From positions 310,001-374,000 of the forward strand of contig NC_014804.1 of assembly GCF_000151105.2 (NCBI RefSeq): 64,000 bases of DNA, given 5' to 3'. Shown here piece by piece: positions 36,628 through 56,531 of the stretch (positions within the stretch are counted from its first letter, which is position 1; the number at the start of each line of letters is the position of its first letter). The translations under genes and the position numbers were made by a program. Below the pieces are notes generated by a model. It saw only the letters and a program-made list of their open reading frames with translations. It was not told the DNA's origin and searched no databases. The stretch comes from Thermococcus barophilus MP. Lineage in GTDB: Archaea; Methanobacteriota_B; Thermococci; Thermococcales; Thermococcaceae.

Positions 36628-36640
36628 TGTCAAAATGACA
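36628..36640. promoter_or_regulatory. 13-bp palindromic motif, copy 1 (thr/aro region)
   Basis: TGTCA-AAA-TGACA, a perfect 5-3-5 palindrome 17 bp upstream of the rightward TATA-like CTTTAAGTT. Related copies lie at 47000 and 55707. The 5-3-5 shape is that of Lrp/AsnC-type (feast/famine) regulator sites in Thermococcales; assignment is inference. Confidence 0.5.
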
Positions 36641-36679: not shown

Positions 36680-36854
36680 GCGGTTTAAAATACCATAATG
36701 ATAGGCTGGCTGGCTTTTCCTGACCAAAAATTTAAATAGTAATAAAGAGTCTTCAAAGTTCGGTGATGGTGATGCCCCGCCAATATCTGTAACCCCAAAC
36801 CCAAGGATTGAAAAAGAAGAATTAGCTGTTTTTAGAAAGCTCTTTTTAAGGGCT

Positions 36855-48458: not shown

Positions 48459-49472
48459 TTAGTAATCTCCCTCCAAAAACTCCTTTAATGCGTTAATCAA
48501 CTCGTCGTTTTCCTCTCTCTTGCCGATGGTAACTCTTATGTGTTCCTTTAATTGTCCACCGAGCTTTCTCACCACAATGCCTTTCTCAAGAAGGAATTCA
48601 TAGGCATCTAAGCGCATAAGCAGAAAGTTTGCCTCGCTTGGATAAGCGTAATCTTTGAATTTTTTATAGATGCGCTCACGCTCTTTAATTATGTAATTAA
48701 CTCTTTCCATAACTACATCATAGTGATTTAGCATGACTTTTGCCGTGATCATTGTTAAGGAGTTGAGGCTGAATGGAGATTTAATTCTGTAGAAAGCATT
48801 GATAATCTCTTCATCTGCCAGAAGGTAACCTGCCCTTGCTCCAGCCAAACTGAAAGCCTTTGAAAATGTCCTCAAAATTATGAGGTTCTCATATTTATCA
48901 AGCAGATCAATACAGCTCTTTCCTGAAAATTCTGCATAGGCTTCATCCAGAACAACCGTAACACCAGTATCGAGGACTTTAAGTATCTCTTCCCTTGGCT
49001 GGGTATTACCTGTTGGGTTGTTTGGAGAGGTTATGAAAACAATGCTCGCTTTTTTAGCTTTCTCTGCGATCATATCGCCGTTTATGGTAAAGCTTTCGTC
49101 CAGAGGTACTTCTACGACGGGAATTTCATTCAGCTTTGCATAGAAATAGTACATACCAAAAGTCGGAGGCGTTGTAACTATGTAGTCCCCTTTAAAAAGT
49201 CTGGTCAAATAGCTCAGCAGCTCATCTCCTCCGTTTCCTACAGCAACATTCTCTGGATTGAGTCCATAAAACTCCGCTATAGCCTCCCTCAGAGGCATGG
49301 CTGTTATGTGTGGGTAGCGATTGAAGGGAGTTTTCCGGAGCTCTTCAAAAATCTCTTCTTTTATTTCTGGCGGCAGGTCGAAGGGATTCTCGTTCTTGTC
49401 AAGCCAAATCTTGTAGTTGCCCTCCAAAACCCTGTAAGGCTCAAAACTTTTAACTAATCCTCGAATCTTCAC
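48459..49472 (-). CDS. hisC: Histidinol-phosphate aminotransferase
   Basis: The 337-aa fold type I PLP enzyme has N-E-N-P-F-D near the start. [15 protein letters not shown] and PLP Lys in [13 protein letters not shown] follow. Converts imidazole acetol phosphate to histidinol phosphate. Overlaps hisIE by 4 bp. Confidence 0.96.
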
Positions 49473-50095
49473 TTTCTCCGCCTCCTCAATTCCTCCATAA
49501 CTTTCCCTAAGCTGATTTCATTGTAGGCAAGCAAAACCAGCAGATGATAAAGCAAATCGGCAGTCTCGTATATTATTCTCTCCCTTCCTTCAGCGACTAA
49601 AACCTCAATTGCCTCCTCTCCAAACTTCTTGTAGATTTTCTCCTTCCCCTCTTTGAACAGCCTTGACGTGTAAGAATCTTCTTTTGGATTTTCTTTCCGC
49701 TGCTTTATCAACTCTTCAAGCTCCCTCAAAATTGTCAGCGAGTAATCTATCCCACCAACGGCTTTTTCAGGCTCTCCTAACTTTCTGTAAAAGCATGAAT
49801 AATTGCCAGTGTGGCATGCAACACCAACTTGCTCAACAATTAAAAGCAAAGCGTCATTGTCGCAGTCTATCCTAATCTCCTTTACTTTTTGAACGTTTCC
49901 ACTAACCTCACCTTTCATCCTAATTCTCTTTTGACTCCTTGAATAGTAGTGGGCATAACCCGTTTCAAGCGTCTTCATTAAAGCTTCTTTGTTCATGTAA
50001 GCCAATGTTAGAACTTCCCCCTTTGTATCCTGGACAATTACTGGAACAATCCCATTGTTCCTCTCCCAGTTGACTTTTTCAATAAGCTCCTTCAT
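49469..50095 (-). CDS. hisIE: Phosphoribosyl-AMP cyclohydrolase / phosphoribosyl-ATP pyrophosphatase
   Basis: The protein of about 208 aa is a fusion. HisI part (1-110) has D-C-D-N-D-A-L-L and C-H-T-G-N-Y-S-C-F zinc ligands. HisE part (120-208) has [10 protein letters not shown] and E-T-A-D-L-L-Y-H. Catalyses steps 2 and 3 of histidine synthesis. Start: ATG 50095 has GGAGTG 6 nt upstream; ATG 50101 is possible. Confidence 0.96.
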
Positions 50096-50100
50096 TTTCA

Positions 50101-50856
50101 TCACTCCAATCTTATAGGAACGCCTTTCTTAGCAAGATACTCTTTCAGCTCTCTAACCGTGTATTTTCCATAGTGGAATATCGAAGCTGCCAAAGCTGCC
50201 TCAGCACCTATTTTAAACGCTTCATAAAAGTGCTCCGGACTTCCAGCACCTCCAGAGGCTATAACTGGAATATCCACGGCTTCAACGATCGCTTTAGTCA
50301 GCGGAATATCAAAGCCTTGCTGAGTTCCATCTGTGTCCATTGATGTCAGGAGTATTTCTCCAGCACCTAAGCGCTCAACTTCCTTTGCCCACTCTATAGC
50401 ATCAAGTCCTCTTGCTTTTCTTCCTCCGTGAGTATAAACCTCCCAGTATTTGCTGTTCCACTTTGCATCAATCGCTATGACCAAATTTGCAGAGCCAACA
50501 ACTTTTGCAGCTTCGCTTACAAGCTTTGGATTCTCAACGGCCGCTGTATTTAGGAAAACCTTATCAGCACCGCTTTTGATAATCTCCCTTATCTCTTCGA
50601 CGCTTCTAATTCCTCCACCAACTGTAAATGGGACGTAAATCTCCTCTGCAATGCGCTTTACTAAGTCGAGGAGAATTCTCCTCTTTTCAAACGATGCTGT
50701 GATGTCAAGAAAGACTATCTCGTCTATTCCTTCTTCCTCATAGCGCTTCGCTAATTCTATTGGATCCCCAGCATCTCTGATGTTTTGAAACTTTATTCCC
50801 TTGACCACTCTACCTTCCTTTATATCCAAGGCTGCGATAATCCTCTTAGCTAACAT
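50101..50856 (-). CDS. hisF: Imidazole glycerol phosphate synthase, cyclase subunit
   Basis: The 251-aa TIM barrel has [19 protein letters not shown] at the N-terminus (catalytic Asp). [14 protein letters not shown] and T-S-M-D-T-D-G-T (second catalytic Asp) follow. Works with HisH. ATG 50856 fits the family start and the GGTGATTG upstream; the ORF from 50874 would overlap hisA. Confidence 0.97.
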
Positions 50857-50857
50857 C

Positions 50858-51547
50858 TCAATCACCCAAGACATTTAACAGCTCTTCTAAAGTAACCTTA
50901 CCTTCGTAGAGGGCTTTTCCCACTATAGCTCCAGAGAATCCAATCTCTCTAAGCTTGATCACATCATTCACGCTTGAAACTCCTCCAGCATAAATGAATT
51001 CCTCATTGTTCCAAAAGCGCTCTATGCTCCCTATCCCAGTTAAAGTGCCATCTTTTTCGATTGCCGTGTAAATAAATCTTTTGACGTATTTTCTAAGCAT
51101 TTCGTAGGCTTCCTCAACACTTATTGAGCTCTCCTCAAGCCAGCCCTTCACCGCTATCTTTCCGCCCTTGGCATCTAAGCTAACAGTAATTCCTTCAAAA
51201 TCTTGTGTTACTCTTTCTAAAAACTCCAAGTCAAAGGCTTTCGTGCCAATTATGACGTTTTCGACGCCGATTTCATAAGCCTTTGCTATGCTCTCATAAT
51301 CTCTAAAGCCACCCCCAAGCTGAATTCTCAGTCCTGTTTTCTCTATTATTCGTCCAACAACACCAAGATTTTGAGGCTTTCCGCTAAAAGCCCCATCCAA
51401 GTCCACTATGTGAATTTTGTCAACGTATTCGGCGAAGCCCTTGGCTATCTCCACCGGGTCACCGTAAACTTTCACTTTATCCTTTCTCCCCTTGTAGAGG
51501 CGAACGGCATTTCCATTCATTAAATCTATAGCGGGGTAAATCTTCAT
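50858..51547 (-). CDS. hisA: ProFAR isomerase
   Basis: The 229-aa TIM barrel, sister of HisF, has Y-P-A-I-D-L-M-N-G-N-A-V-R-L near the start (catalytic Asp), V-D-L-D-G-A-F, Q-L-G-G-G-F-R and Y-T-A-I-E-K-D-G-T. One base after hisH's stop. Confidence 0.96.
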   Translation of the reverse strand: MKIYPAIDLMNGNAVRLYKGRKDKVKVYGDPVEIAKGFAEYVDKIHIVDLDGAFSGKPQNLGVVGRIIEKTGLRIQLGGGFRDYESIAKAYEIGVENVIIGTKAFDLEFLERVTQDFEGITVSLDAKGGKIAVKGWLEESSISVEEAYEMLRKYVKRFIYTAIEKDGTLTGIGSIERFWNNEEFIYAGGVSSVNDVIKLREIGFSGAIVGKALYEGKVTLEELLNVLGD

Positions 51548-51548
51548 C

Positions 51549-52139
51549 TCACAACCTCCTGAAGTTCGCTAAGAGCTTTAACCCAACTCTGCTCGACTTT
51601 TCTGGGTGGAACTGAACCGCGTAGACGTTGTCCTTGCATACTGCAGAGGTAAAAATCACTTCGTTGCCCTTCGACTGATAGTCTGTAACCCCTGCGACTA
51701 TGTTCTCATCTTGGGGATCTGCGTAGTAGGAGTGGACAAAGTAGAAATATGCTCCATCCTTTATGCCTTCAAAGAGCCTGCATTCTTTCTTCTGCCACAC
51801 CTGATTCCATCCGATGTGCGGCGTTCTGACTCCTCTAAAGCGCACAACTTTGCCTTCAAACACGCCAAGCCCTCTGCTTCCCGGGCTTTCCTCGCTCTCT
51901 TCAAAGAGCAGCTGAAGTCCAAGGCATATGCCGAGGAACGGCTTCCCGTCGTTTATGGCATCTAAGATGACTCCTCTCAAAGGCTCAAGCTTCTCCATCA
52001 CAGCTCCAAAGTTCCCAACGCCGGGCAAAACTATTTTCTCAGCTTTCTCTATTTCATAAGGGTCGCTCGTAATGACTCCACCTAAAGCTTTTCTCACGTT
52101 GGCTAAGTTGCCGATTCCCAAATCAACTATCGCAATCAC
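51549..52139 (-). CDS. hisH: Imidazole glycerol phosphate synthase, glutaminase subunit
   Basis: The 196-aa class I glutamine amidotransferase has I-V-D-L-G-I-G-N-L at the start. The nucleophile elbow is G-I-C-L-G-L-Q-L-L, and His/Glu are in V-Q-F-H-P-E-K-S. Supplies ammonia to HisF. GTG start at 52139, overlapping by one base the TAG of the 59-codon frame in the insert upstream. Confidence 0.96.
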   Translation of the reverse strand: MIAIVDLGIGNLANVRKALGGVITSDPYEIEKAEKIVLPGVGNFGAVMEKLEPLRGVILDAINDGKPFLGICLGLQLLFEESEESPGSRGLGVFEGKVVRFRGVRTPHIGWNQVWQKKECRLFEGIKDGAYFYFVHSYYADPQDENIVAGVTDYQSKGNEVIFTSAVCKDNVYAVQFHPEKSSRVGLKLLANFRRL

Positions 52140-52318
52140 TACAGCACCCCCTCAGCCCTTTGCTTCGCATGTTGGGACAAAGTCCCAACACGTCGGGAAG
52201 CTTCGCTTCCCACGAAGCGCTGGTGGAAATTTTCCATCTGCCAAAGGCTTGTCCCACAGTTGGTGTTCCAATATGCCTTTTGAGTACATTTTAGGTTGCT
52301 CTCTATGGAATTCCTCAT
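52139..52318 (-). other. Hairpin-rich insert between hisB and hisH with a 59-codon frame
   Basis: This is the only real gap inside the operon. Perfect inverted repeats: 9-bp arms 52170-52178 and 52182-52190; 7-bp arms GGGAAGC (52195-52201) and GCTTCCC (52205-52211); TGGAAA/TTTCCA (52224-52236). An outer GCTTCG (52162-52167) pairs with CGAAGC (52213-52218) around the first two. In the sense direction an ATG directly follows the hisB TGA, in the same frame. It stays open for 59 codons to TAG 52141-52139, ending A-E-G-V-L like hisB's own K-G-V-L. The ends are near-identical (GGGGTGTTGT and GGGGTGCTGT). It may be a small mobile or repeat element, or an operon RNA element. Confidence 0.55.
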
Positions 52319-52849
52319 TCACAACACCCCTTTTGTGCTCTCCAAACGCTCACTTTCGCTTAAAGCCTGCCTCAGAGCAACACCGAGTCCCTTAAACGCA
52401 GCCTCAATTATGTGGTGTGCATTCACTCCAGCCAGCTGCTTCATGTGGATTGTGGCATTTAATGTCCTTGCTAAAGCCCAGAGAAATTCCCTAACTAACG
52501 TAACCTCGAAGCCTTTCTCGCTCTCCTTTATATCGAGCTCAAGGTTGAGGTAAGGCCTTGAGATATCGACAGCGACCAGAACCAGTGCATCGTCCATCGG
52601 CATTATCGCACTTCCAAAGCGGGCTATCTTTCTGCCTTTAATTTTCTCTCTAAGCTCTTCACCCAGGACTATACCCAAGTCCTCCCACAGGTGGTGCCTT
52701 AAATCATAGCTCGCCTTGATGCTGACATTTTGTTGCATGTAAAAGAATAAAGCAGTAAGGAGGTGGTCAAATACTCTATCTCCTGTTTCTATGCCTCCAT
52801 CAACGCCAATCTCTACAATAATATCAGTCTCTTTCGTTTTGCGCCTCAT
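52319..52849 (-). CDS. hisB: Imidazoleglycerol-phosphate dehydratase
   Basis: The 176-aa monofunctional IGPD has F-D-H-L-L, the metal motif H-H-L-W-E-D, P-M-D-D-A-L, a second N-A-H-H-I-I-E and the canonical C-terminal S-T-K-G-V-L. That ending shows the gene is complete at its 3' end despite the insert that follows. Slightly shorter than bacterial forms. ATGA overlap with hisD. Confidence 0.95.
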
Positions 52850-53979
52850 CTTCTAACCTCCATCGATTTCCTGTGCATCTCCATTCCCTCTATCTCTGCA
52901 AGCCGAATTCCAAGATAGCGCTCGCTTAGAAATTCTTCTCTGCTTACGTAGGCTAAGCTTATTCTCTTCATGAAGTCCATGACTGTTAAAACCCCACTGA
53001 ACTTTGCTGCTCCCCCTGTAGGCAGAACGTGGTTAACTCCAAGGAAATAGTCAGCAGCTGGCACCGGTGTGTATTCTCCCAAGTAGATAGCTCCAGCATT
53101 TTCAATTAAATCTACGAGCTTCAGCGGTTCCTTCGTGATTATCTCCAAGTGTTCTGGAGCTATCTCGTTAGCTTTTTCGGCGCACTCCTCCAAGCTTTCA
53201 CACACGACAACTTCAATTCCATTCTTTCTGCAGTACTCCGCTAATTCCTTTGAAGTCGTTAAAAGCCAAGCTTTGCTGCCTTTTCCGTGCTCCAGCTGGG
53301 AAAGCAAATCGTATAAAACATACTCCTTATTTGCCGTCTCGTCGGCTATAACAGCTATCTCCGATGGTCCAGCTAAGCTGTCAATTCCTACAACACCAAA
53401 GACCTGCCTCTTTGCTTCATTCACGAACCTATTGCCTGGACCGAAGATTTTGTCTACCTTCTTCATTCCAATGCCGTAAGCCATTGCCCCAATCGCTTGA
53501 ATTCCACCGAGCTTGTAAACCTCTTCGATGCCGAGAAGCTTTGCAACATACAGGATGTACGGATTGATTTTGCCGTTTTTAGGTGGTGTTGTAACCGCTA
53601 TCTCCTTAACACCTGCTACTTTTGCTGGAACTCCAGCCATGATGAGCGTTGAAGGCAGAGGTTTTCCTCCGGGGACATAGATACCGATTCTCCTTATCGG
53701 CTTGTAGATTATGCCGTAAAGCGAAGCGTTCTTTATGTAGAGCTTATCGCTCTCAAGCTGTTTCTCGTGGTAAAAGCGGATTCTTTCTATTGTGCGCTTG
53801 ATTATCTCTTTATCTTTCTCTGGAATCTGCCTCTCCGCTTCTTCAAACTCCTTCTCACTAACAAGGAATTCCCCGTCATAGCCGTCAAACTTCCTTGAGT
53901 ATTCCTTTACAGCTTCAATACCCCTTTCCCTTATGTCTTTCAAAATTTGAGCCACATAGCTTTCTAACTCAAGATTCAT
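52846..53979 (-). CDS. hisD: Histidinol dehydrogenase
   Basis: The 377-aa enzyme oxidises histidinol to histidine in two steps. Motifs: [33 protein letters not shown], the zinc/catalytic L-E-H-G and I-A-P-E-H-L-E. It is about 40-50 residues shorter than bacterial HisD, mainly at the N-terminus. Start overlaps the end of hisG by 11 bp. Confidence 0.95.
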
Positions 53980-54586
53980 CTTTGATAACCTCCTTAATTT
54001 TTAAAACAAGCTCGTTAATCTCCTTAAACTTCGTTTTCTGGGAAATTCTGTTCACCAAAAGCAAAGCCGAAACATCCATAATCTTCTCAACCTCAACTAA
54101 TCCATTGGCTCTCAATGTGTTTCCCGTCTCGACGATATCAACGATGGCATCTGCAATCCCAATTTTTGGAGCAAGCTCGATGCTTCCGTGAAGCTTTATC
54201 ACCTCAACTTCAACTCCTCTTTTCTCAAAGAACTTCCTTGCAAGGTTTGGGTATTTGGTGGCTATTCTAAAACCGTCCATCTCTTCAACGCTGACTACAT
54301 TTTCCTTGGGCATCGCCAAGCTTAAGCGGCATTTTCCGAAAGGCAGCTCAAGAGGGACGAGGACGTCACTTTCCCTTTCCTCAACAACGTCGCTTCCAGC
54401 TATCCCAACATCTACACCGTACTCTACATAAACAGGCACATCGAATGCCCTGGCAAGAAGAAGCTCATACCTGCCGTTTTTCACAATCAGTTCTCTGTTC
54501 TCTGGTGGCTTAAGCTCAATCCCGGCTTTTTGCAGAATTTCAAGCGAACCCTTGAATAGCCGTCCTTTTGGCAGAACAAACCTCAT
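53969..54586 (-). CDS. hisG: ATP phosphoribosyltransferase, short form
   Basis: The 205-aa HisG short form lacks the C-terminal regulatory domain. It has L-P-K-G-R-L near the start, [19 protein letters not shown] and the PRPP-binding [13 protein letters not shown]. Short HisG enzymes need HisZ, encoded just upstream. Catalyses the committed step of histidine synthesis. Confidence 0.96.
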
Positions 54587-55473
54587 TCTTCCACCTCCAC
54601 CGGAATGCCAAGCTTTACGAGTTCTCTTGCAAGCTTGTATGCTTCTTTCATCTTCCCTCTGATCCTCTTTCTGCTCTTCTCTATTTTCCCGTCAAAGAGC
54701 TTTGAGAGGGCATTTAAGTCGAATGCGAATCCAAAAGCGCTGGCTCCCTTGAAAGTGTATTCCCCTCCGCCTCCGAGCGGCTTTCCGATTCTTGGAGAGT
54801 AGACCTCAAAGATTATGTCGCTGTAGTAAGGCAGGGGTCTTATTGTGCCGAAGTCTATGAAGACTCTCTCATCATCCACTGCCTCGATAATTTTGTTAAG
54901 CTTTTCATATTCACAGCTCTTCCCTCTGAAGTTGAACAGCTGCCAGAGCTCTTCTTTCTTCTCCTCGTTTATAGGTAATCTCTCGATGATTTCGAAGTTT
55001 CTTCTTGTTAATGCCCTGAAAATTTCTGCTTTGAATTCTTCAATTCCCTCAATTGCTCTCTCCCAGACCTTCAAGCTGCCGACATCGATGTAGAAATCCT
55101 CGATGCCGAGCGCTTCCAAGGAAGTTATAACAGTTAAAAGAACCTCGACCTGCATTTTAATGTCATCTCCTCCGATGAACTCAACTCCAGCCTGCCAGTC
55201 TCCTTTAATTCCACCGTTCAGCACTTCACTGATGTAGTAGATCTTAAGTCTCCTTGGCTCTTTGAGGTTTGCAAGGATCTGGGATGTTAGGTCGGGCTTT
55301 ATTACATAAAATTCATTGTTGTAGACAAATTTTGTCCCTTTCCTAAGCTGCCCACTGAACTCTTCTATTGTCGGCAAGAATATCTCCCTATAACCCCAAA
55401 GCTCGAAGGTTCGTCTTAAATACTTTGTAATGTCTGCTAACCTCTCTGATTCGGAAAATAAATCCTTCTTCAA
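54583..55473 (-). CDS. hisZ: ATP phosphoribosyltransferase regulatory subunit HisZ
   Basis: The 296-aa HisRS-like protein keeps the class II fold ([22 protein letters not shown]) but lacks tRNA-binding and usual motif 3 features. It binds HisG and conveys histidine feedback. Shorter than bacterial HisZ. Start is TTG 55473 with GGGGGGAT (55478-55485) 4 nt upstream; that SD can be paired away by the leader RNA. First enzyme gene of the operon. Confidence 0.92.
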
Positions 55474-55476
55474 GAG

Positions 55477-55533
55477 AATCCCCCCAGAAATTTCTTGATG
55501 AAAACCCTTCTGAATAAGGGAGCATCCGGAATT
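55477..55533 (-). promoter_or_regulatory. Alternative RNA structures between his leader ORF and hisZ
   Basis: On the sense (minus) strand CCCTT (55520-55516) pairs with AAGGG (55509-55505), followed by TTTT (55504-55501). An outer GATG/CATC pair (55526-55523 with 55500-55497) flanks them. Alternatively AATTCC (55533-55528) pairs with GGGATT of the hisZ SD (55482-55477, one G-U), which would hide the SD. CTCCC can also pair with the SD G-run. The set is consistent with a conditional terminator or SD switch; T4 is short for an archaeal terminator. Confidence 0.5.
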
Positions 55534-55548
55534 AATACGTTAGAATAG

Positions 55549-55647
55549 TCAATGATGATGGCAGTAGCTCACCAGAAGAGCGATTGAAAATTCAACCTCT
55601 CCCTCAAGGCTTATGCTTCTTTTGCTGTTTACTCTCAACTCTCTCAT
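55549..55647 (-). CDS. Candidate his operon leader peptide (32 aa, ends Cys-His-His-His)
   Basis: From ATG 55647 the frame reads M-R-E-L-R-V-N-S-K-R-S-I-S-L, then an acidic and hydrophobic stretch, and finishes S-Y-C-H-H-H-stop, with three consecutive CAT codons. The SD GAGGTG lies 7 nt upstream (55660-55655), with GGAGGTT before it. A TATA box sits 34 bp upstream of the ATG. The hisZ start is 75 nt after the stop, with alternative RNA pairings between. It could instead be a small functional metal-binding peptide; no homologue is known to me. Coding signals are good, the regulatory role is inferred. Confidence 0.6.
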   Translation of the reverse strand: MRELRVNSKRSISLEGEVEFSIALLVSYCHHH

Positions 55648-55680
55648 TTTTAGACACCTCAACCTCCAATGTTCCGTGCC

Positions 55681-55719
55681 CTATATAAGTTTAACCTATG
55701 GAAGTTTGCCAATATGACA
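55681..55719 (-). promoter_or_regulatory. his operon promoter with palindromic motif copy 3
   Basis: TATA box CTTATATAG on the minus strand (55689-55681). Upstream by 17 bp is TGCCA-ATA-TGACA (55707-55719 as read on the plus strand), within the near-palindrome TTTGCCAATATGACAAA. Same spacing to TATA as at 36628 and 47000. Transcription is expected to start about 55660, just before the leader SD. Confidence 0.6.
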
Positions 55720-55736
55720 AAGATTTGCGAAAAATA

Positions 55737-56531
55737 TTAGGTCTGAAGGGAAGCCAGCTCAAAGATAAGCTCAGCTCTGGGGCAGTATTTTTTCAATCTT
55801 TCTTTAACTTCTGCGTGCTTCCCGAGAACGGGCCAGAGAATTGAATCTATGTGAAGAGGTGGGATATCAACGTCTCTTGCAATTCTTGACCAGAAAACTG
55901 TGGGAGGTTCGTTTGTGAATCTCTTTGTATATGCATTTATTCTCACATCATCTGGAATTTCAATTTCCATTGGATAGGGGATGAATTCCCTAAATGCTAT
56001 TCTGCCCGCATACCCAAACATCTTCACAGCAAAGACTATTGTTTTGGCATTTCGTTTGGAATTCAGCACTTTTGCAAGGTCGTTCCTTAGAGATGTCATT
56101 GAATAGTAGTAATTTTTGAGGTCTTTAAGTTTAAGCTCAGCCAAGAAAGGCTCAAGCTTTTCAAGCCTTTTAATTTTTGCAGCTGTCAGCCTTCTGTTAG
56201 TCTTTGACTCTGATAGAAACCTTGAATAAGCATCAGCAATACCTTTTTCTGAAGGGTTCGATGAGAAATACTCGGCAAATTCCCACCACCACTCTTCTCC
56301 AGTGGCTGTCAGCTGATAGCTGACTACTGCGTTGGCAATTACGAGCTTTATAAACAGCTCATCGTTTTTGAGATTTTTGTAAAGATGTTCTAAAGCCGAA
56401 AACTGCAGATCAACTTTCTCCTCGATAGTTCTGGCACATTCTATGCCCAACTCTCTAAGGATTCCCTTTAATCTTTCGATTTTTGGCTTGTTCTCCTTGT
56501 ATTTGACTGTGATGAAGCGGTCAAGGGTCAT
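55737..56531 (-). CDS. Archaeal 8-oxoguanine DNA glycosylase AGOG
   Basis: The 264-aa helical protein of the AGOG family is an N-glycosylase/DNA lyase of the helix-hairpin-helix superfamily that removes 8-oxoguanine. Family hallmarks are D-L-Q-F-S-A-L, G-E-E-W-W-W-E-F, the Lys-containing K-T-I-V-F-A-V-K-M-F-G-Y-A (catalytic Lys candidate) and I-P-P-L-H-I-D-S. Three bp after the RFAP synthase gene, so co-transcribed with it. Confidence 0.9.
   Translation of the reverse strand: MTLDRFITVKYKENKPKIERLKGILRELGIECARTIEEKVDLQFSALEHLYKNLKNDELFIKLVIANAVVSYQLTATGEEWWWEFAEYFSSNPSEKGIADAYSRFLSESKTNRRLTAAKIKRLEKLEPFLAELKLKDLKNYYYSMTSLRNDLAKVLNSKRNAKTIVFAVKMFGYAGRIAFREFIPYPMEIEIPDDVRINAYTKRFTNEPPTVFWSRIARDVDIPPLHIDSILWPVLGKHAEVKERLKKYCPRAELIFELASLQT

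Follow-up and report, generated by a model that had tools for sequence, protein, structure and literature searches.

The his operon in the window, that is, in the whole 64,000-nt stretch of Thermococcus barophilus DNA that was analysed, is preceded by a short leader ORF, here named hisL, which lies right behind a TATA-like box and a Shine–Dalgarno (SD) sequence and whose tandem CAT codons are kept in relatives while the remaining peptide drifts. The box, the SD and the open frame point to a leader that is translated as the first ORF of the transcript; the terminal tandem His codons, the opposite choice of His codon in the operon genes, and a first protein, HisZ, that is mostly free of histidine point to the charging of His-tRNA being sensed by ribosome pausing. 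On this sequence evidence, the leader probably senses histidine shortage through ribosome stalling. We consider it very likely that histidine is what is sensed, and likely that this ORF of 32 codons acts in cis on the his operon as its leader gene, in the way laid out below.

The initial annotation had described a TATA box, an SD, an ORF of 32 codons that closes with Tyr-Cys-His-His-His-stop, and, 75 nt further on, the TTG with which hisZ starts, all of which are indeed present in the sequence (Table 1). The ORF extends on the minus strand from the ATG at 55647 to the TGA at 55551–55549, and its peptide ends in LVSYCHHH; hisZ starts with the TTG at 55473, 75 nt 3′ of the leader stop, and is followed by hisG, hisD, hisB, hisH, hisA, hisF, hisIE, and hisC. 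The next gene upstream of the leader on the same strand encodes an N-glycosylase/DNA lyase. Judging from the position of the TATA-like box, transcription would be expected to start ∼12 nt 5′ of the leader ATG. Similar signals accompany the leader in relatives, a TATA-like sequence being found 39–50 nt 5′ of the leader ATG in 34/47 loci and an SD-like sequence before an in-frame leader ATG in 44/47.

Table 1. Features of the his locus within the window, in order of transcription.
Feature	Position	Strand	Basis or remark
TATA-like element TTATATAG	55681..55688	(-)	sequence
Shine–Dalgarno GAGGTG of leader ORF	55655..55660	(-)	sequence
hisL, leader ORF, 32 codons, MRELRVNSKRSISLEGEVEFSIALLVSYCHHH-stop	55549..55647	(-)	HH at or near the end in 47/47 family hisZ loci
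conserved GGTGAGCTACTGC just 5′ of the His codons	55561..55573	(-)	family comparison
three tandem CAT codons, proposed stall and sensor site	55552..55560	(-)	codon counts in family
CTATTCT after leader stop codon	55542..55548	(-)	TTCT kept in 47/47 loci
CCCTT/AAGGG hairpin, then T4 (55504-55501)	55505..55520	(-)	found in 1/47 loci
GGGGGG, Shine–Dalgarno of hisZ	55480..55485	(-)	aligns with GGAGGG in relatives
hisZ, ATP phosphoribosyltransferase regulatory subunit, 296 aa	54583..55473	(-)	TIGR00443, E 1.4e-37; score below the curated cut-off, yet the best-matching family
hisG (short form)	53969..54586	(-)	TIGR00070
hisD	52846..53979	(-)	TIGR00069
hisB	52319..52849	(-)	NF002114
hisH	51549..52139	(-)	TIGR01855
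hisA	50858..51547	(-)	NF003156
hisF	50101..50874	(-)	TIGR00735
hisIE	49469..50104	(-)	NF002747
hisC	48459..49472	(-)	TIGR01141

Of the 94 genomes of the family (taken as Thermococcaceae), 47, from six genera, contained hisZ at an E-value of 1e-30 or better, the lowest identity among these loci being 56%. In every one of them, 24–80 nt separate the hisZ start from a short ORF that has His-His(-His) at its C-terminus or close to it; thus, the leader with codons for the cognate amino acid, which the initial annotation had seen ahead of the operon's first gene in the window, is kept together with its terminal His codons in 47/47 loci. The idea of a leader peptide with His codons thereby withstands the comparison with relatives that the initial annotation had named as a means of refuting it. 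When an ATG, an SD-like sequence, a length of 10–60 codons, and HH within the last five residues were demanded, 43/47 upstream regions passed, compared with 2/2350 dinucleotide-preserving shuffles, although the 47 loci are related and do not amount to 47 independent trials. The four that failed (L042, L055, L058, and L059) did so on the SD or on the position of HH, yet they have an HH peptide. A leader ORF with terminal His codons therefore occurs far beyond chance; the short ORF is genuine and kept across the family. Runs of two and of three His codons are equally common (23 loci each), and one locus has four, so that the doubt raised earlier about a stretch of only three weighs less now. From the run to the stop codon the distance is 0 codons in 34/47 loci, 1–3 in 12, and 6 in one.

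The ORF mostly ends in GTG-AGC-TAC-TGC-CAT-CAT(-CAT) or a variant thereof, with SLHH, LHCHH, or IFHHI standing in for SYCHH in other loci, and the N-terminal parts vary freely. Changes at the conserved codons include synonymous ones (AGC/AGT, TGC/TGT, TAC/TAT, and GTG/GTA). Codon changes in the N-terminal part are spread about evenly over the three codon positions (computed for six of eight clades, all but L058/L059 and L050/L054), which indicates that the leader peptide itself is little constrained. The sequence TACTGYCATCATCATTGA occurs in 14/94 genomes, once in each and always at the hisZ leader, and is absent where hisZ was not found. The G preceding GTG is kept in 38/45 distinct sequences despite the varying amino acid at this position. 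It belongs to an SD-like GGTGA that precedes the first CAT by 8 nt, roughly as far as an SD precedes its start codon, and that might keep a ribosome in place with this CAT in its P site. Possibly, GGTGAGCTACTGC serves to carry the SD-like GGTGA, or it forms the 5′ arm of a small hairpin. RNAalifold predicted such a hairpin, GGTG-GC/GC-CATC, in the clade of the window, with one compensated pair; a partner slid by −3 scores about equally or higher over the 47 loci. Another constant feature is TTCT: all 47 loci have it in frame with the first His codon and no more than 30 nt after it, either before or after the stop. The hisZ gene starts with TTG in 21 loci, GTG in 21, and ATG in five (start codons and SDs of the relatives were chosen by a script rule), and weak starts such as TTG and GTG might be expected where initiation is controlled.

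The choice of His codon sets the leader apart from the operon that it precedes. CAT occupies the first His position in 44/45 distinct leader ends and the second in 44/45, and accounts for 115/119 codons of the leader His runs in the 47 loci. Codon usage of the operon was compared for the window and 20 genomes fetched from among the 47 with hisZ, 6–9 his genes being recognised in each and mechanically called ORFs of at least 120 aa nearby serving as neighbours. The his genes contain 48 CAT among 516 His codons, compared with 697 among 1,626 in the neighbours (odds ratio 0.14), and the share of CAT is lower in the his genes in 21/21 loci, although these loci are related and the counts not independent. 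In the window, hisZ to hisC (48459–55473) use CAC 24 times and CAT once; the other ORFs use CAT 141 and CAC 148 times. Part of the CAC excess reflects general codon optimisation, because the his genes favour the preferred synonymous codons of other amino acids too: for eight other two-codon amino acids the odds ratios range between 0.53 and 0.84, and the preferred Tyr codon is favoured in the his genes of 21/21 loci (odds ratio 0.60). The preference is, thus, general but much stronger for His.

Histidine itself is avoided at the beginning of the operon. HisZ contains none in 39/47 loci, including one fragment of 74 residues (L007), and the HisZ of the window is devoid of it over 296 aa. That biosynthetic enzymes tend to avoid their cognate amino acid is a known bias. 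As a separate observation, histidyl-tRNA synthetase lacks histidine in 5/5 loci of the window's genus (L010:697-2007 on the minus strand among them), and 20 further ORFs resembling it (L087–L106) contain between 0 and 3 histidines, nine of them none. One tRNA, with the anticodon GUG, should read both His codons, CAT by G:U wobble, for which reason CAT is probably read more slowly than CAC. On balance, CAT is somewhat more likely than not the deliberately sensitive codon of the leader. Selective charging of isoacceptors would not apply where there is a single one; a model paper explains codon choice in attenuators by that principle (PMC1183508).

In the mechanism that we propose, ribosomes would translate hisL and, when charged His-tRNA is scarce, pause at its CAT codons. 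A paused ribosome would switch on hisZ and hence the whole operon, the genes of which could be made during starvation by virtue of being depleted in CAT and of beginning with a usually His-free protein. The output would most likely be exerted at the hisZ start 24–80 nt away, either on its accessibility or through coupling with it, rather than by an intrinsic terminator. This is the least certain step, and a translational output is suggested here only tentatively.

Base pairing between the stall region and the SD of hisZ bears on this step. Nine loci, all from one clade, can form a 13-bp helix between GGAGGGGTTAGTG in the SD region of hisZ and the second CAT, the TGA, and CTCTTCT, with z −2.7 to −3.6 for the duplex relative to shuffles, which suggests translational attenuation in that clade; there, a paused ribosome would mask the pairing of the His codon and stop region with the SD. 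No compensatory changes were found in the helix. In L019, L021–L023, L050, and L051, the corresponding duplex scored z −1.8 to −2.7, and in the other loci, it was weaker, absent, or positive (z +0.38 in the window); the mean over the 47 loci was z −0.77, and the duplex ranked within the best 5% of windows in 16/47. As a universal switch, the pairing was rejected, for it is strong in one clade only and in the window no better than in shuffles. The notion that a ribosome masking the His codons frees the SD of hisZ throughout the family was not supported: when this was evaluated for each locus, the mean was z 0.13 over 47, with 10/47 above 1, 7/47 below −1, and the window at −0.62. Five of the 47 were at or below 0.05 (L019, L021, L023, L031, and L053), as was 1/9 in the clade with the 13-bp helix. 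A search of positions 55300–55800 against Rfam gave a single match (E 3.4), which fell far short of the gathering score, and inspection of the other strand by eye for a box C/D sRNA revealed a C-box-like ATGATGA and no consistent D box.

Other explanations of the locus differ from the preferred one mainly in what follows the His codons, or in whether the codons matter at all. The his leader-peptide attenuator originally drawn for the window combined the leader with an intrinsic terminator and an antiterminator, as in classical bacterial attenuation, and the window does possess CCCTT/AAGGG followed by T4 (CCCTTATTCAGAAGGG-TTTT, 55520–55501). Its leader part holds in 47/47 loci, but the switch does not: the hairpin lies between leader and hisZ in 1/47 loci, the window alone, and so do the segments AATTCC and CTCCC that had been proposed to compete for pairing. 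An intrinsic terminator was not found as a conserved element between leader and hisZ, terminator-like hairpins occurring there at chance level (3/47, that is, 6.4%, compared with 4.9% in mononucleotide shuffles). RNAalifold recovered no terminator/antiterminator pair from the 15 sequences of the window's clade, and folding of the window's leader RNA showed no advantage over shuffled versions of it (z +1.11). In L045, L047, and L049, moreover, spacers of 24 nt leave no room for such elements; they would hardly accommodate a promoter ahead of hisZ, either. With the hairpin confined to one locus and terminator-like hairpins no commoner than by chance, attenuation of the bacterial type is not what the family conserves, and we find it hardly credible as the explanation. 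A polarity switch would do without a hairpin, which agrees with the fact that no terminator-like hairpin is conserved. Here, the ribosome would leave at the leader stop and the naked RNA would allow a termination factor, with FttA/aCPSF1 invoked in this role, to stop transcription before hisZ, whereas termination would be prevented by a ribosome that pauses at the His codons and stays close behind the polymerase. Leader, His codons, and short spacer fit this equally well as the preferred model, and polarity is known in Thermococcus, which counts in its favour. However, a conserved U-rich tract is missing between the leader stop and the SD of hisZ, where the longest T-run is three or fewer in 21/47 loci, and spacers down to 24 nt leave little naked RNA. 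A polarity switch is, in our estimate, unlikely.

Two further explanations shift the weight from the codons to the peptide or to the nucleic acid as such. In nascent-chain arrest of the TnaC type, the VSYC-HH peptide would stall in the exit tunnel on free histidine, whatever the charging of the tRNA. This would give meaning to Val-Ser-Tyr-Cys/Arg/Tyr ahead of HH being the commonest ending in the family. That SLHH, LHCHH, and IFHHI take the place of SYCHH in some loci argues against it, as do the lack of a fixed distance between the His run and the stop (0 codons in most loci, up to 6 in one) and the leaders of a second family (see below), which have only HH in common; the direction is awkward, too, as histidine should repress the operon rather than induce it. 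We therefore regard arrest by the peptide as improbable. Still less probable is it that a small protein made from the ORF has a function of its own, or that the conserved stretch is a binding motif in DNA or RNA and has nothing to do with translation. Conservation of GGTGA...CATCAT...TTCT at the nucleotide level would be in keeping with the latter, but the N-terminus drifts without codon-position bias, some of the changes at the conserved codons are synonymous, and the opposite choice of His codons in leader and operon would be left unexplained.

Leaders of this kind are not confined to hisZ. In a second family, which belongs to the same class, seven type-1 hisG genes, each followed by hisD, have leaders with His codons at or near the end in 7/7 cases, although for one of them, L133, the contig begins there and only the last leader codons are visible. 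These leaders end in HHH (five), HHN (one), or HHQ (one), their stop lies 26–28 nt before the hisG ATG, and the first His codon is CAC in 2/7. No match to hisZ was obtained in the eight genomes of this family that were searched, and none of seven type-2 hisG genes of the family (a set without L126 and L132) has HH within 200 nt upstream. When the leaders of the two families were compared by eye, no similarity beyond the His codons was seen; the leader device is, thus, either old, with only the His codons kept, or it arose twice. In the second family (L118–L122, L131, and L133), a 4-bp hairpin, CGYC/GGCG, abuts the SD of hisG just after the leader stop; it is paired in 6/6 and shows no informative change. 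Taken in its widest form, the proposal would be one of archaeal ribosome-mediated attenuation without terminators, in which a CAT sensor acts on the start of the first his gene, the choice between CAT and CAC sets sensitive versus starvation-proof translation, and the device either predates at least two families of the class or came about in them independently. We see the case for this general form as evenly balanced. If true, translation-sensing control of an amino-acid operon would extend to the archaeal domain, probably without a terminator hairpin, and the opposite His codons in sensor and operon would provide a clean test of starvation sensitivity with two codons and one tRNA.

Compared with known systems, hisL resembles its namesake of Salmonella and Escherichia coli in that it is short, contains His codons in tandem, and precedes the his genes; at the bacterial leader, the ribosome stalls when His-tRNA is short (PMC4046918), and stalling is what we infer here. 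It differs in that the bacterial leader has seven His codons in a row, whereas the archaeal ones have two to four, mostly CAT, at or near the stop, in that a conserved terminator/antiterminator was not found, and in that the first gene is hisZ or hisG. Translational attenuation of the ermC type likewise relies on a leader ORF, on which a stalled ribosome would uncover the SD of the gene that follows. There, the signal is an antibiotic, whereas the archaeal leader would respond to tRNA charging; in one archaeal clade, the stall region itself pairs with the next gene's SD, but the sequestering helix does not extend to the whole family, and the window lacks it. By its sequence, the archaeal leader would, thus, combine the sensor of the bacterial his leader with the lack of its defining terminator and be a member of neither attenuator class. 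With the TnaC arrest peptide it shares a short conserved C-terminal motif near the stop codon, but the position of the archaeal motif relative to the stop varies, and induction by shortage rather than by excess would be expected.

Control of amino-acid operons in Thermococcus has been described for Tar (TK0271), which, unlike a leader, is a DNA-binding activator; it regulates the aromatic amino acid operons of Thermococcus kodakarensis at their promoters, and the main text of that paper contains neither ‘leader’ nor ‘attenuat’, and ‘histidine’ in a methods passage only (PMC6737238). According to a paper from 2014, attenuators in vivo in Archaea had no direct experimental support at that time (PMC4247193). 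An archaeal leader-peptide attenuator for an amino acid was not found in searches of an open-access library, which lacks the bulk of subscription papers and of preprints.

Inspection by eye of hisS in five loci from the window's genus, of the window's thr operon, and of argG in three genomes of the genus revealed no leader of a comparable kind, which suggests that it is not a general device at these genes. The genome of the window yielded no match for PF01450 (ilvC) or PF00697 (trpF), and its only match for PF00764 (argG) falls below the cut-off. Upstream of the thr operon, a 39-codon ORF (36685–36804, minus strand) has a central run of four His codons, which was taken as chance. In L116, a member of the genus, the trp operon looks decayed by eye, with short trpB and trpA frames and a transposase-like ORF between them. 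Finally, the palindrome TGTCA-N3-TGACA is found upstream of both the his promoter (55707–55719, one mismatch) and the thr promoter (36628–36640, perfect). Across the whole window, it is mildly enriched (six occurrences versus 2.0 expected), and with one mismatch at most, it is present 5′ of the leader in 13/47 hisZ loci, compared with ∼0.25 expected from mononucleotide shuffles. Possibly, it represents the operator of a transcription factor common to his and thr.
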